64,000 nucleotides of DNA, taken from assembly GCF_030369635.1 (NCBI RefSeq), contig NZ_CP128474.1, positions 2,108,001-2,172,000 of the forward strand, given 5' to 3'. The notes below the pieces were generated by a model. It was not told the DNA's origin and did no database searches. It worked only from the letters and a program-made list of their open reading frames with translations. A program made the position numbers and the translations under genes. Each line of letters begins with the position of its first letter. The stretch's first letter is position 1. Of this stretch, positions 35,365-40,870 are shown piece by piece. The DNA comes from Microbacterium arborescens (GTDB lineage Bacteria; Actinomycetota; Actinomycetes; Actinomycetales; Microbacteriaceae).

Positions 35365-37110
35365 TCAGCCTCCTCGCGGGCCGCCATCGACGACTGATCT
35401 CATGTAATCGCGGAGACCGGGGTCGCATACGTACACGTACGTCCCTAAGATCCCGCGCGTCAGCAGGACACCGTAGATGTTCTGGACCAACGCAAGGAGA
35501 TCTGCATCAGTCGTAGGCCGACCGAGCTGACCGAGGTTCTCCTTGCCCTTCCTATCGCGGTACGAATCGCGATCCACAGCGACTCGTCCGTCATAGCGCA
35601 AGTCGTTGCCGATGATCACGCCGGTGTAGTTGAGGTCGTATCCCTGAACCGTATGGATGGATCCCACCTCGTCCAGCGACCCGGGAGAGTTGATCCAGTC
35701 CTTGTCAGTGCGATTCCACGTGAACGGGATACCTTCCAGCTCGAAGTCGGATCCGGGTTTGTTCCCTCGTGTCCTCCAATCCCAGGCGTAACCGGCCACG
35801 AGACGGGCGAGCCCAACCTCGCGGTCGCGCTTGCGGATCGCAGCTTGCATGGCCGCGACGCTGTCGAAGAACCTCAGATCGTATTCGCCGAAGTCAGGGC
35901 GGTCTCCCGCCCGCGCCTCGCCCCGCAGCAGCTGACGAGTGAATCCGACATAGTCGGCGTCCGCCCTCACGCGCATCTGTCTCGCTAGGGGGAACCACCG
36001 CTTGTTTCGCTGCGCGTCCCTGATCTCGGTGTCAAGCACGTCACTCGGGAGGTCTGCTGGCCGTACGCCCTGCCGCTCGTCGATGAGCAAGATCTGGTGA
36101 CGGCTCTGCGCACGGATCCAGTCGAGCTGAGTCTTGGTCGTGTCGTCCCATCCGAAGAGCCGTGCGTTGATCTCAGCGAAGTCCCGGTTTCGGATGCCCG
36201 AGGACTGATTCGCGCGGCGATTGAGCCGGTGCGTTTCGTCCACGATCAGCAGGTCGAACGGCACCGTCGATTTGCCCACATCGAAGGGGTTGAGAACAAG
36301 GTCTTCGCTGACCTTGGGGGTCTTCCGAAAGACCTTCTTGATCGAGTCGCGAAGCGACTGCTGCGGGACGACGAGCCCGATACGGACGCCCTTCAGCAAC
36401 TCCCGGTTCTCGGGGACGAAGAACTCCGCGAACAGAGAGTCTTGTTCGACCTCGTCGGCGTCGTCATAGTCGCGGATGTCACCCAACAGCTTCATGAGGA
36501 AGATCGCGACGATGGTCTTGCCGGTGCCTGGGTGCCCCTGGATGACGCTGGTCGATCGAGTGCCCGCCGCCAAATCCTGGAGAAGCGCCTCGACGATCTG
36601 CTCGACGGCAACAGCTTGCTCGTGCGTGAGGACCTTGAACGGCGAGAGCTTGAACAAATCGGTGTTCTCGATCTCGGGGATGCTCCGCTGGAATACTCCC
36701 TCGGCGCGCAGCTGCTCGAAGACCTCACGGAAGCTCTCCCGGTACCGTTCCCGCTCGTAGTAGCGCGCATCGATGATGCCCTCGTTACCGTTGAGCACGG
36801 TGAAGTGCCCGTCACCTGCAAGCCAACGGATGAGGTGCGACTCGAGATCGAGGCAAGCTGACTTGTTGAATGCTTCGTCGATCACCACCCGTGACCGGCG
36901 CAACGCTGCCTTGGCCGGATTCCGGAGGTGCTGCTCCATCCGCGAGGCGGCGTTGATGGTCTCGCCGACATAGACGAGTGGAGGGCCCGGGGCGCCGGCA
37001 CTGTCAAGGACATACACGACCGGCCAATTTGTCCGCCGCTCATCTTCAGATGCCCATGCCCGGACGTCCGACACGGTGAGGTCGAGCTCCTCAATCTCAG
37101 AGGGCGTCAT
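35365..37110 (-). CDS. GIY-YIG nuclease fused to DUF2075 (Schlafen-like) helicase
   Basis: 581-aa cytoplasmic protein. Residues 30-115 form a GIY-YIG nuclease domain: VVYVLD (31-36), LVYVGET (45-51), Arg57, Glu90 in CLDLESHLIRW and Asn107/109 fit the catalytic residues. Residues about 160-580 are a DUF2075 superfamily-1-like helicase domain: Walker A GHPGTGKT (192-199), Walker B FDLLIVDETHR (286-294), a motif III-like LLIDERQG (341-348) and the late IHTVQGYDLNYTG. It starts inside the last codons of a MazG-like gene (14-nt overlap). GC content is clearly below that of the chromosome average here. Domain set and context suggest defence against foreign DNA; this is inference. Confidence 0.88.
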   Translation of the reverse strand: MTPSEIEELDLTVSDVRAWASEDERRTNWPVVYVLDSAGAPGPPLVYVGETINAASRMEQHLRNPAKAALRRSRVVIDEAFNKSACLDLESHLIRWLAGDGHFTVLNGNEGIIDARYYERERYRESFREVFEQLRAEGVFQRSIPEIENTDLFKLSPFKVLTHEQAVAVEQIVEALLQDLAAGTRSTSVIQGHPGTGKTIVAIFLMKLLGDIRDYDDADEVEQDSLFAEFFVPENRELLKGVRIGLVVPQQSLRDSIKKVFRKTPKVSEDLVLNPFDVGKSTVPFDLLIVDETHRLNRRANQSSGIRNRDFAEINARLFGWDDTTKTQLDWIRAQSRHQILLIDERQGVRPADLPSDVLDTEIRDAQRNKRWFPLARQMRVRADADYVGFTRQLLRGEARAGDRPDFGEYDLRFFDSVAAMQAAIRKRDREVGLARLVAGYAWDWRTRGNKPGSDFELEGIPFTWNRTDKDWINSPGSLDEVGSIHTVQGYDLNYTGVIIGNDLRYDGRVAVDRDSYRDRKGKENLGQLGRPTTDADLLALVQNIYGVLLTRGILGTYVYVCDPGLRDYMRSVVDGGPRGG

Positions 37111-37417
37111 ACTTGGCGCTGCGTCCCCTTGACTTGTCCACGGGGTACTTCGTGCGAGTCTCAGCCAGCTTGTCGAGAACGATCTGGTCGAGGTCGAGAC
37201 CAAGCCGCTCCGCGAGAAGCGTGCAGTAGGTTACGACATCAGCCAGCTCTTCTCGGACCCGAGTCTCGTCAGCATCGTCGCTCCATTGGAAGCACTCGAG
37301 CAGCTCCGCAGCTTCTATGGAGATGCTCTTGGCGAGATTGCTCGGCGTGTGGAACTGACCCCAGTCACGCTCTTCGACAAACTGCGACAACGCTTCTTTC
37401 ACCGGCTCACTCGTCAC
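37097..37417 (-). CDS. MazG-like nucleotide pyrophosphohydrolase
   Basis: 106-aa all-alpha NTP pyrophosphohydrolase. The metal-binding ExxE...ExxD pattern is intact: Glu35/Glu38 (IEAAELLECFQW) and Glu57/Asp60 (EELADVVTY). This is the short dCTPase/MazG-like form, usually a dimer or tetramer that hydrolyses (d)NTP to (d)NMP plus pyrophosphate. The GTG before TSEPVKEAL is the only sensible start; no strong Shine-Dalgarno. It is first in a two-gene operon with the GIY-YIG helicase and lies 72 nt downstream of tRNA-Arg on the same strand. Confidence 0.88.
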   Translation of the reverse strand: MTSEPVKEALSQFVEERDWGQFHTPSNLAKSISIEAAELLECFQWSDDADETRVREELADVVTYCTLLAERLGLDLDQIVLDKLAETRTKYPVDKSRGRSAKYDAL

Positions 37418-37489
37418 GGTGTGACCGTACCGCAGACTGCCCCTGCTCGCGGATGTGACGGTCTCGCGTAGGCCAGCCGGCGAAAACGG

Positions 37490-37561
37490 TGCCCCTGGAG
37501 GGATTCGAACCCCCGACCCGCTCCTTAGGACGGAGTGGCTCTTCCACTGAGCTACAGAGGC
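37490..37561 (-). tRNA. tRNA-Arg (anticodon CCT)
   Basis: 72-nt cloverleaf read on the minus strand: acceptor GCCTCTG pairs with CAGGGGC, D-arm GCTC/GAGC, anticodon stem around loop GTCCTAA (anticodon CCT, with T before and A after), T-arm with GGTTCGAATCC and discriminator A. The 3' CC is encoded but followed by G, so CCA is completed enzymatically. tRNA genes of this kind are frequent integration sites, and the MazG/helicase pair lies immediately 3' of it. Confidence 0.95.
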
Positions 37562-37646
37562 AAGGCACCCCAAGTCTAGACGGCCGCGGGCCGCGGCATC
37601 CCGTCCCTCCTCAACCCCAGCGCGCCCCAGCCCTATGCTGACCAAC

Positions 37647-38285
37647 GTGACCCGAGACGCCCCAGCCACCGCGCCAGCGCGCCGGCCGCTGCGAACGGCG
37701 CTCGGGATAATCGCTGCGTTCGTCCTCTTCGTCGCCACGATGGCCGCTTGGATCGGCGGACTCATCGCGTTCAATGCGCTCGGCATCCCGATGACGGGCG
37801 TCGAGTGGCTCGGCTGGGTGATCGCGGGACTCATCGCGGCAGCGGTGTGGCCCCTCGCGGGACGGCGAGCGCACCGCGAGTTCTGGGCTCGCCAGCACCA
37901 CGGCGCAACGCCGCCGAGAGCCCCCGCGACAACACCGGATCGCGTCCTGCGCATCCTTGTCATGATCATCGGCGCCGCGGGTCTCGTCGCGCTGTGCGGG
38001 CCGCGCAACATCACTCTCGCGCTGGCCGAGGCGTGGCAGATCATCGCTCCCGGCGGACGCTCATCGAGCGCGCTCCTGCAACTGATCGGTCTGTTGCTGT
38101 GCTTCGCGCTGATGGTTCCGCCGATGCTCATCACCCAGCGGAGCCTCCGCCGCACCCCGCGCGACCACCCGGATCGCCTCGGTCTCGAGCTCCGGCAGAA
38201 CTGGTACGTGTCGGCGGCGACCGCGTGGGTCTGCTGCCTGCTCCTCGGGCTGATCGTGAGCTTCGTTCTCGTCAAAACCCTTTGA
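37647..38285 (+). CDS. Hypothetical membrane protein, 212 aa
   Basis: Four hydrophobic helices (near residues 20-42, 50-70, 95-112, 130-150, with a last one at 185-208) linked by basic loops (RRAHREFWARQHHG, RSLRRTPRDHPDRLG). No family recognised. An ATG four codons upstream lies inside the -10-like TATGCT; the GTG 7 nt downstream of that hexamer is preferred and gives a leaderless message. Divergent from tRNA-Arg. Confidence 0.72.
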   Translation: MTRDAPATAPARRPLRTALGIIAAFVLFVATMAAWIGGLIAFNALGIPMTGVEWLGWVIAGLIAAAVWPLAGRRAHREFWARQHHGATPPRAPATTPDRVLRILVMIIGAAGLVALCGPRNITLALAEAWQIIAPGGRSSSALLQLIGLLLCFALMVPPMLITQRSLRRTPRDHPDRLGLELRQNWYVSAATAWVCCLLLGLIVSFVLVKTL

Positions 38286-38746: not shown

Positions 38747-38815
38747 TCTGTATAGAGGACCTGTGCGAGGCGGTCCAGGATGCGACGGGACTTTCCTCGA
38801 TCGAGGGGCTCAAAT

Positions 38816-38845
38816 TTGACCATGGCCGACCATCCGGCATATTAG
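38816..38845 (+). promoter_or_regulatory. Promoter of the DUF2510/DUF4041 gene
   Basis: -35 TTGACC (38816-38821), 18-bp spacer, -10 TATTAG (38840-38845). Transcription would start about 20 nt before the GTG codon, leaving an AAAGG sequence in the leader. It sits in AT-richer DNA than most promoters in this window. Confidence 0.5.
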
Positions 38846-38873
38846 AGAGGTCTCATCTGAAAGGCCCAAAGAA

Positions 38874-40469
38874 GTGACCGATCTCACAACTCCCCCGCCC
38901 GCGTCGTGGTACCCCGACCCGAGCGGGAAATTCGAGAGTCGTTATTGGGACGGTGCTGCCTGGACCGACCACGTCGTGATCGAAGGCGTGCAGACACGCG
39001 AGCAGCTCGGGGACACAGCCGAGAAGGCGGCCGAGGCGTCACCCCTGCCCGCGACGCGGCGAGCAGCGCGCGAGTCGGTAGCCGGCGAGCATGCACGTAA
39101 CGAGACGGCTCCTGCGACTGAGCTGGTCGGCACACCACTCCCAAACGACTCCCCGCCCCTCGCGTCCCAGCCGACCGCGCCCCCGTTTTCGCATGAGCGG
39201 TTGGTAGCTCGGTCGACGCCTCCGCAGAAGGTACCCTTCTTCGGTGCCCGCAAGTTCGCGCAGGACCTCCAGGCCGAGAATGCACGCCTGGAGGAACTGA
39301 TCTCTCGTTACGGCCTCCGCGAGCTCGCCGACCTGGATGCCGCAAAGGTGAGGATCCAGGCGGAGACCGCACGCGCAGAAGCCGACCTCGATCGCGCGCG
39401 CTCTGGTGCTTTTGCAGCCCACCAGGAGAAGGCGACGGTGGCTAGCCAGCTCATCGACCTTCGTAACCAGATCGAACTGCAGGAGTTCGGGCTGTTCGAT
39501 TTCGAGCACCCCGCGGAAAGCTCAGTAGCGCTGGCGACAGACCTCGAGTCCGTGCGCAGCGAGATCAAGAGCCAGGTCAGAGCTGGTAGAGCCACTCAGG
39601 CGACGCAGAGCTTCACGTTCAACAACAGCGCCGCCAAGGGCCGAAAGTTCGTCGCTGACATGTCTAAGCTGCTTCTTCGCGCCTATAACGCCGAGGCCGA
39701 GAACTGTGTGAAGACGGTGCGAGCTGGGAATCTCGAGGCAGCGCGCAAGCGTCTCTCGACCGTCGTGGACCAGGTCGAGCGCCTCGGAAAGATGATCGAC
39801 CTCCGGATCACTCCCAAATACCATCGCCTGCGACTGCGCGAGCTCGAACTCGCCAGCCGCCACCTCCAGGCCGTCCAGGCTGAGAAGGAACTCGAGCGCG
39901 CTCGCCGTGAGGAACTGCGGGAACAGAAGAAGGCAGAGCAGGAACTCACGCGAGAGAAGGAGCGACTGCAGAAGGAGCGCTCACACTACGCGAACGCCCT
40001 CGCGTCTCTGGAAGCGAAGGGTGACCTCGAAGGGGCACAACGCCTTCGAGAGAAGCTCAACGACGTCGAGAACGCCATCGAGAACGTCGACTACCGTGCC
40101 GCGAACATCCGCGCCGGTTACGTCTATGTGATCAGCAACATTGGAGCGTTCGGGCCCGACGTCGTGAAGATCGGACTCACCCGCCGACTCGACCCGATGG
40201 ACCGGGTCAACGAACTCGGCGACGCGTCGGTGCCTTTCCGGTTCGATGTTCACGCACTGTTCTTCGCGGACGATGCCGTGGCGATCGAGACGATGCTGCA
40301 TCAGCAGTTCGCTGCGCAGCGAATCAACAAGGTGAACCTGCGTCGCGAGTACTTCCGCGTGACTCCCGAAGACGTACTCAAGGCGCTGAACGAACATCAC
40401 GTCGAAGTCCTCGAGTACACCCTCGATCCGGTCGCGGCTGAGTATCGGAGTTCGATCGCGGCTGCCTGA
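38874..40469 (+). CDS. DUF2510-DUF4041-GIY-YIG (T5orf172-type) protein
   Basis: 531-aa soluble protein in three parts. Residues 8-40 are a DUF2510 motif (PPASWYPDPSGKFESRYWDG AAWTDH split here by a space), common in actinobacterial membrane-associated proteins. Residues about 125-405 are the DUF4041 region with long coiled coils (EKELERARREELREQKK). Residues about 415-510 are a GIY-YIG nuclease of the T5orf172/MUG113 type (AGYVYVISNIGAFG, VVKIGLTRRLDPMDRVNEL, and Glu in AIETMLHQQF). GTG start. Related DUF4041-GIY-YIG proteins occur in phages and in defence islands. GC is lower than the genome average, suggesting transfer. Its target is unknown. Confidence 0.87.
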   Translation: MTDLTTPPPASWYPDPSGKFESRYWDGAAWTDHVVIEGVQTREQLGDTAEKAAEASPLPATRRAARESVAGEHARNETAPATELVGTPLPNDSPPLASQPTAPPFSHERLVARSTPPQKVPFFGARKFAQDLQAENARLEELISRYGLRELADLDAAKVRIQAETARAEADLDRARSGAFAAHQEKATVASQLIDLRNQIELQEFGLFDFEHPAESSVALATDLESVRSEIKSQVRAGRATQATQSFTFNNSAAKGRKFVADMSKLLLRAYNAEAENCVKTVRAGNLEAARKRLSTVVDQVERLGKMIDLRITPKYHRLRLRELELASRHLQAVQAEKELERARREELREQKKAEQELTREKERLQKERSHYANALASLEAKGDLEGAQRLREKLNDVENAIENVDYRAANIRAGYVYVISNIGAFGPDVVKIGLTRRLDPMDRVNELGDASVPFRFDVHALFFADDAVAIETMLHQQFAAQRINKVNLRREYFRVTPEDVLKALNEHHVEVLEYTLDPVAAEYRSSIAAA

Positions 40470-40492
40470 CCACCATCGTTAGGGTCGAGGGG

Positions 40493-40870
40493 ATGGAAGC
40501 CGAGATCATCCCCCGCATCGTCCTGTTCGTCACGATGGCCGGCTCGGGTGCTCTGCTGATCTGGATGGCGCGGGCCGCGGCATCCGGAAAGCTGAAGCGG
40601 AACTCGCTCGCCGGCATCCGCACACCCAGCACCATGTCCAGCGACGCAGCCTGGCTCGCCGCTCACGTGCGCTCGAAAGGCGCGACACTCGTCACGGGCT
40701 ACGTGTCCGTCGCGATCGGCGTGGTCTCGCTCGTGCCGATGCCGCCGGCGGCGCTCGGGATCATGGTGCTCGTAGGCGCCGCGCTCATGGTCATCGTGAT
40801 GATGTGGGGAACTCGCGTCGGCATCAAGGCCGCTCTGGCGGCGACAGCGGCGACGGAGGCAGCACGATGA
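40493..40870 (+). CDS. SdpI-family membrane protein
   Basis: 125-aa protein with three hydrophobic helices and the SdpI/YhfL signature RNSLAGIRTPSTMSSDAAW near residue 38. SdpI of Bacillus gives immunity to the SdpC toxin and acts as a signal receptor; short actinobacterial forms are of unknown specificity. The stop overlaps the GNAT start (ATGA), so the two are coupled. TAGGGT lies 7 nt before the ATG. Confidence 0.87.
   Translation: MEAEIIPRIVLFVTMAGSGALLIWMARAAASGKLKRNSLAGIRTPSTMSSDAAWLAAHVRSKGATLVTGYVSVAIGVVSLVPMPPAALGIMVLVGAALMVIVMMWGTRVGIKAALAATAATEAAR

Follow-up and report, generated by a model that had tools for sequence, protein, structure and literature searches.

What does a gene for a MazG-like enzyme do when it overlaps a gene for a nuclease-helicase, next to a tRNA gene in the genome of Microbacterium arborescens? 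The question was raised by a window of 64,000 nucleotides (nt), positions 2,108,001 to 2,172,000 of contig NZ_CP128474.1 (assembly GCF_030369635.1), in which a reading of the letters and open reading frames had proposed a candidate defence system (hereafter the original prediction). Our analysis revealed that the two genes form a real, strict and patchily distributed unit. Judged from sequence, the pair is likely to act in anti-phage defence, with the two proteins probably working together against phage DNA, and the MazG enzyme probably destroys cytosine nucleotides.

The gene pair and the strictness of its association

The pair lies on the minus strand, and its features, in positions of the window, are as follows (aa, amino acids; NTP, nucleoside triphosphate; SF1, superfamily 1).

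37097..37417, minus strand: MazG-like all-alpha NTP pyrophosphohydrolase of the DCTPP1/RS21-C6 type, 106 aa, GTG start (PF12643, 1.1e-20)
35365..37110, minus strand: fusion of a GIY-YIG nuclease and a Schlafen-group-3 (DUF2075) SF1 helicase, 581 aa (protein P0002)
36775..37029, minus strand: GIY-YIG domain, about residues 28-112 (PF01541, 21.3 bits, sub-threshold; conserved residues in 81/81 sequences)
35422..36552, minus strand: helicase domain, residues 187-563 (PF09848, 7.5e-62)
37097..37110, minus strand: 14-nt overlap of the MazG-like and helicase genes, the same in 63/80 relatives

These coordinates agree with the 14-nt overlap originally described, and the lower-GC DNA noted there was measured at 61.4% for the module against 69.0% for the window. 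A single copy of the pair is present in the source genome, which is a single contig of 3.37 Mb.

The association was followed in two overlapping samples, 99 Microbacterium genomes and 80 loci from genome_contigs, the latter being closest relatives only (the best 80 of 348 confirmed). The helicase was matched in 30 of the 99 genomes and at full length in 27, and all 27 full-length copies carry MazG directly 5′ of the helicase, with no MazG near any of the three helicase remnants (L028-L030). Searching the same 99 genomes for MazG yielded 29 matches, comprising the 27 pair copies, a fragment (G071) and a sole full-length orphan (G064), which adjoins a 5-methylcytosine (m5C) methyltransferase gene. 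MazG was also adjacent in 80/80 fetched relatives, and since only one other MazG copy occurs in the 1.43 Mb of flanks of these loci, the adjacency is not a matter of chance. The pairwise distances of MazG and helicase are correlated (r = 0.734, n = 80; 0/2000 permutations as high), a correlation to which shared host descent contributes.

Beyond the closest relatives, a helicase match at 1e-10 was detected in 30/396 genomes of the phylum, 28 of them outside Microbacterium, and 16 of these 28 distant helicases have MazG in their flanks, either upstream, downstream or divergent. A total of 40 plasmid records matched the helicase; 16 were fetched and MazG was adjacent in six, which come from Lactiplantibacillus, Ligilactobacillus, Priestia, Halomonas, Marivirga and the archaeon Halalkalicoccus.

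Family and pocket of the MazG-like protein

The catalytic E-x-x-E...E-x-x-D residues of MazG (E35, E38, E57 and D60), originally reported as intact, are maintained in 81/81 sequences, that is, the window and the 80 fetched relative loci, on which all residue counts given here are based. The closest relatives in the PDB are RS21-C6 and dCTP pyrophosphatase 1 (DCTPP1), at 6.5e-19 (dCTP, deoxycytidine triphosphate). Eight base-pocket residues of DCTPP1, including His38, Trp47, Trp73 and Tyr102, are listed in PMC4491611, and seven of these eight are identical in MazG and invariant in 81/81. Specific hydrolysis of 5-methyl-dCTP is attributed to RS21-C6/DCTPP1 and to the Nudix enzyme Orf135 of E. 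coli (PMC10742078), and DCTPP1 is reported to act on dCTP as well as C5-modified dCTP (PMC7162842). By sequence, MazG falls among the dCTP/5-methyl-dCTP pyrophosphatases of the DCTPP1/RS21-C6 group; it matched no PADLOC family at E 0.1.

The nuclease-helicase and its exchanged N-terminal domain

In the window protein, GIY-YIG scores slightly below the cut-off of PF01541 (21.3 bits against 22.6), and a 38%-identical relative (L124) exceeds it at 23.6 bits. The putatively catalytic residues Y33, Y47, G49, R57, H61, E90 and N109 are present in 81/81 sequences, and we take the conserved Y, Y-x-G, R, H, E and N to have the roles assigned to them in GIY-YIG nucleases. In the helicase, which belongs to PF09848 (SLFN-g3_helicase, presumably the former DUF2075), the Walker A motif, D291-E292-x-H294, Q489-G490 and R552 are found in 80/81, the exception being a truncated helicase copy (L108), so that the key residues of the fusion are intact as originally stated. 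Only the group 3 helicase domain was matched by Pfam, with no match to the Schlafen RNase core at E 0.1, and no strong full-length PADLOC match to P0002 was obtained, the best being AbiO at 9.6e-8 over 48 residues only.

A total of 14 forms without GIY-YIG were aligned, 12 from the distant loci and two from plasmids, and all harbor an N-terminal domain with invariant D84, E102-L-K104 and Q136-xxx-Y140, which we take to be a PD-(D/E)XK nuclease pattern. MazG is nearby in nine of these 14 forms. Between lineages the N-terminal domain has been exchanged, with the MazG partner retained. Two profile searches of the PDB returned only helicases and other P-loop proteins, or scatter thereof.

Three further arrangements were observed among the distant and plasmid helicases. 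One locus (L146:931-3429) encodes a Schlafen-group-3 helicase that ends in an S24 peptidase domain at its C-terminus, presumably of the LexA/UmuD type, with MazG upstream. On a Limosilactobacillus plasmid (L181), a DUF2075 helicase gene lies directly upstream of the cas6 and cas10 genes belonging to a type III-A CRISPR system, and on the Fructilactobacillus plasmid pLS1 (L180) a related helicase gene adjoins cytosine permease and cytosine deaminase genes.

Defence neighbours and NUDIX genes

Removal of 16 loci with shared flanks from the 80 left 64 flank contexts, in which genes were called with a home-made codon model. Within 2.5 kb of the pair, these contexts contain five SauUSI-type genes, four SRA-PD-(D/E)XK genes, seven PD-Lambda-1 genes and one DUF3578 gene, while at 2.5-10 kb the same families are represented by one SauUSI-type gene only (17 near vs 1 farther). 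Tested by length, this near-clustering gave p = 2.5e-9, and 1.6e-5 without PD-Lambda-1. The deduplication removed one locus (L067) although its near flank differs from that of L059, and SRA-PD-(D/E)XK thus counts four after deduplication and five in all 80 loci. A broader PADLOC scan covered 243 near and 150/175 far proteins and the 25 commonest families per set; mad3 was not enriched (5/115 in one near set against 7/150 far, among the matches listed). The GmrSD_C-Excalibur neighbours (the L053 cluster) have a Pfam match only, with none in PADLOC, and were excluded from the defence counts.

The SauUSI-type neighbours have the architecture PLDc-ResIII-DUF3427, and one of them (L049) matches the PADLOC type IV mREase at 7.1e-237; according to PMC3874153, SauUSI consists of PLDc-2, NTPase and DUF3427, and DUF3578 is the DNA-binding N-terminus of McrB. 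The 322-aa SRA-PD-(D/E)XK neighbour has no Pfam match; its N-terminal part is related to ScoMcrA (profile 2.9e-6), and its C-terminal part carries the pattern D233, E244-x-K246 and Q260-xxx-Y264. We take the ScoMcrA-related part to be the SRA region.

Some of these neighbours are accompanied by a NUDIX gene. A search that started from the SRA-PD-(D/E)XK neighbour and scanned genomes regardless of the pair found this gene in 16/249 Microbacteriaceae genomes, at full length in 11, with a NUDIX gene adjacent in six of the 11 (L167-L172) and the MazG-helicase pair directly beside it in five (L163, L165, L166, L168 and L169); neither accompanies two full-length copies and all five short ones. Among 296 genomes, NUDIX was located beside two of three full-domain DUF3427 matches (L151 and L153) and none of eight weaker ones. 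The Lactiplantibacillus plasmid carries NUDIX, a SauUSI-type gene, MazG, helicase, a gene that matched nothing, an AAA gene matching PDC-M26A and DUF2357-PDDEXK_7, and the Priestia plasmid a restriction endonuclease, a MutT-type NUDIX, DUF3578, MazG, helicase and type I genes. The one NUDIX protein tested (L042) is closer to MutT2 (6.4e-24) and NudG (8.4e-21) than to E. coli MutT (4.3e-10), its best match being 5x1x (6.2e-42), named only as mutator MutT protein. Overall, type IV-like neighbours are often accompanied by NUDIX of the NudG/MutT2 kin, and NudG and MutT2 are likewise cytosine-nucleotide hydrolases.

Genomic position and mobility

Two further features at the site stand apart from the module itself.

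37488..37561, minus strand: tRNA-Arg(CCT), immediately upstream of the two genes
38874..40469, plus strand: PD-Lambda-1-like gene (DUF2510, DUF4041 and T5orf172, by Pfam; PADLOC, 1.8e-106), a separate neighbour

With the GTG start, the gap between the 3′ end of the tRNA and MazG is 70 nt; the upstream tRNA was thus rightly placed by the original prediction and its distance of 72 nt is corrected. The link to a tRNA holds for this site and for 10/80 relatives, in which tRNA-Arg(CCT) lies within 3 kb of the pair, and does not extend to an att-like repeat. No exact repeat of the tRNA 3′ end of at least 15 nt was detected in 25 kb of the window and 11 loci, in a search for exact repeats only, and integration at the tRNA gene that left an exact att repeat is therefore unsupported. 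An exact, G+C-rich direct repeat of 17 nt is located at 37585-37601 and 40569-40585. In two relatives (L032 and L040), an integrase-family gene lies within 350 nt of MazG.

A fixed chromosomal locus is ruled out by the 64 flank contexts among 80 loci. The site in the window is common only to L031, L045 and L048 (five window neighbours were tested), the nearest named relative being Microbacterium sp. AG238 (L031), 99% identical in the helicase. Because the gene beside the tRNA (37635-38285) was matched in just six of the 99 genomes, its own included, there was no unambiguous empty site for comparison. The PD-Lambda-1-like gene (window 38752-40475) is shared with L045 and L048 and is cleanly missing in L031, where the flanks are 96-99% identical; this difference is a recent gain or loss, and the copies of the 17-nt repeat lie off the edges of the indel. 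A phage-borne module was also rejected, as IMG/VR yielded no relative of P0002, and the alignment gave one distant match among the 600 stretches listed. An unannotated gut scaffold labelled phage (L118) carries the pair.

Proposed function and alternative explanations

The idea of a candidate defence system is backed by the adjacency of the two genes, their patchiness, the non-fixed position and the defence neighbours. The original prediction had named checks and several grounds for giving the idea up. MazG adjoins the helicase in 27/27 genus copies and 80/80 fetched relatives, and known or candidate defence families do adjoin the pair; a fixed position was refuted by the changing contexts, and vertical phylogeny is approached in part by a genus-coherent tree.

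As to how the pair might work, we tentatively propose, at slightly less than even chances for the mechanism as a whole, a mobile anti-phage module in which a helicase-nuclease is combined with a MazG guard of the nucleotide pool. The SF1 helicase would load on invading DNA and move along it, and the N-terminal nuclease (GIY-YIG here, PD-(D/E)XK-like in other lineages) would cut it. The co-translated MazG would hydrolyse dCTP or 5-modified dCTP and so guard the pool, most likely by keeping modified or excess cytosine nucleotides from being used in DNA synthesis. The modified ones could stem from phage synthesis or from the breakdown of phage DNA. Once cleared, they would be lost to the replicating phage and kept out of host DNA, in which modified cytosine would attract the cell's own modification-dependent nucleases.

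Several observations weigh against this proposal. The position of His38 of DCTPP1 is occupied in MazG by L (57), I (22) or V (2) in the 81 sequences, and since His38 touches the base in the docking of DCTPP1 (PMC4491611), the base preference of MazG is uncertain. The Pfam scan recognised no modified-base reader domain in the helicase protein. MazG was not seen near 12/28 distant and 10/16 plasmid helicases, in flanks that reach only 1.5 kb past the match. The quick tree of the helicase is mostly coherent by genus (21 label changes, the minimum possible being 20), so movement looks mostly local. The neighbour-family counts are partly selected, because it was among the neighbours that these families first drew attention. 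NUDIX, which stood outside the clustering test, shows no concentration within 2.5 kb (four near and five farther, the latter mostly beyond a SauUSI-type gene). Finally, PF00145 m5C methyltransferases occur in 16/27 pair-bearing and 33/72 other genomes (p = 0.27), i.e., without anti-association, and a cluster holding m5C methyltransferases lies within 10 kb of the pair in 12/64 contexts, in some within 1 kb. With no anti-association, and with one context in five having methyltransferases close to the pair, a general m5C target is unlikely and a general m5C-cutting enzyme is unsupported; near and far counts of m5C methyltransferases (8/243 vs 2/150) revealed no clear enrichment among the matches listed.

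The best surviving alternative, which we nevertheless regard as unlikely, is nucleotide depletion, in which the helicase-nuclease would sense or process phage DNA and activate MazG, so that dCTP would be destroyed and replication of the phage, possibly also of the host, would stop. Defences that deplete deoxynucleoside triphosphates (dNTPs) are known, such as dCTP deaminase and dGTPase, and the near-constant overlap register (63/80) suggests fixed amounts of the two proteins or a complex. MazG is, moreover, related to a dCTP pyrophosphatase (PMC7162842). Depletion leaves unexplained, however, why NUDIX of similar chemistry stands beside SauUSI-type and SRA-PD-(D/E)XK genes, and neither MazG nor the helicase has a regulatory or sensor domain that Pfam recognised. 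We prefer the guard, since modification-dependent nucleases are accompanied by pyrophosphohydrolases of two unrelated families whose chemistry, as reported, is similar; of the two mechanisms first suggested for this locus, the handling of modified nucleotides fits the neighbours better, and plain dNTP depletion less well.

It is quite improbable that MazG acts as a sensor, binding phage-made modified dCTP as a ligand and licensing the helicase-nuclease, with the pool as the trigger. The strict pairing and the conserved pocket are in line with such a role, and a review proposes conversion of the pool to 5-hydroxymethyl-dCTP (5hmdCTP) as a possible cue (PMC12707154). Yet the catalytic glutamates and aspartate are invariant, which argues for catalysis rather than binding alone, and a physical interaction of MazG with the helicase is only hypothetical.

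A housekeeping role, in which a nucleotide-cleaning enzyme and a DNA-repair helicase-nuclease would act on damaged bases and not on phages, would suit the largely genus-coherent helicase tree and the description of MazG and NUDIX as classic house-cleaning enzymes in PMC10742078 and PMC7162842. It is made very improbable by the patchy presence (27/99), the 64 contexts in 80 loci, the plasmid copies and the defence neighbours. The least credible explanation, a part of a type II restriction-modification system whose cytosine methyltransferase would shield the host from the GIY-YIG enzyme, could draw on the methyltransferase clusters mentioned above, but their occurrence in only 12/64 contexts falls short of a cognate methyltransferase in the locus and led us to reject the methyltransferase as an obligate third component.

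Returning to the guard of the nucleotide pool, a wider principle might be considered, although we hold it to be rather doubtful: modification-dependent restriction may often come with a dedicated enzyme that cleans up cytosine nucleotides, MazG in the case of Schlafen-type helicase-nucleases and NUDIX in that of SauUSI-type and SRA-PD-(D/E)XK enzymes. This enzyme would block the entry of phage-derived modified dCTP into host DNA and so provide self-immunity by removal of a metabolite instead of by a protecting methyltransferase. If the proposal is true, an enzyme of the nucleotide pool would be strictly paired with a nuclease-helicase in defence, it could be explained in testable form why modification-dependent nucleases leave host DNA intact when it gains modified cytosine during infection, and both DUF2075 helicases and MazG as a defence domain would have a function.

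Comparison with known systems

In the open literature searched, the scope of which did not include subscription papers and preprints, no description of the pair and no DUF2075 joined with GIY-YIG or MazG was found, and the titles and abstract starts of open papers naming DUF2075 do not treat the function of the helicase. DefensePredictor gives MazG as a predicted, unvalidated defence domain, and its text, figures aside, names no GIY-YIG, DUF2075 or helicase (PMC13092281).

Among the PADLOC families, the GIY-YIG part has a match in PDC-S14 (1.9e-7). The helicase part has one in PDC-S41 (1.2e-6), which reaches 2.2e-19 with the archaeal form of PD-(D/E)XK-like type; these are single-gene candidates with weak partial matches, and MazG belongs to neither. 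The pair shares with Schlafen proteins the group 3 helicase domain and differs in the RNase core, which Pfam did not find. DCTPP1/RS21-C6 of the MazG superfamily are the closest relatives of solved structure and have the seven identical pocket residues, whereas the MazG here is shorter, has L, I or V in place of His38 and, save for the one full-length exception in 99 genomes, stands beside a nuclease-helicase. The possible destruction of dCTP recalls the dNTP-depletion defences, from which the pair differs by another enzyme family and an obligate nuclease-helicase partner.

Type IV restriction (SauUSI, PLDc-NTPase-DUF3427; McrBC, DUF3578; ScoMcrA, SRA) resembles the pair in joining an NTP-driven DNA-processing domain to a nuclease and in having no obligate methyltransferase, since 16/27 pair-bearing genomes hold one and G000 none; type IV enzymes are also often direct neighbours of the pair. 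Nevertheless, the pair differs from them by its lack of a recognised reader domain, by a GIY-YIG nuclease placed on a Schlafen-group-3 helicase, and by its obligate pyrophosphohydrolase partner.

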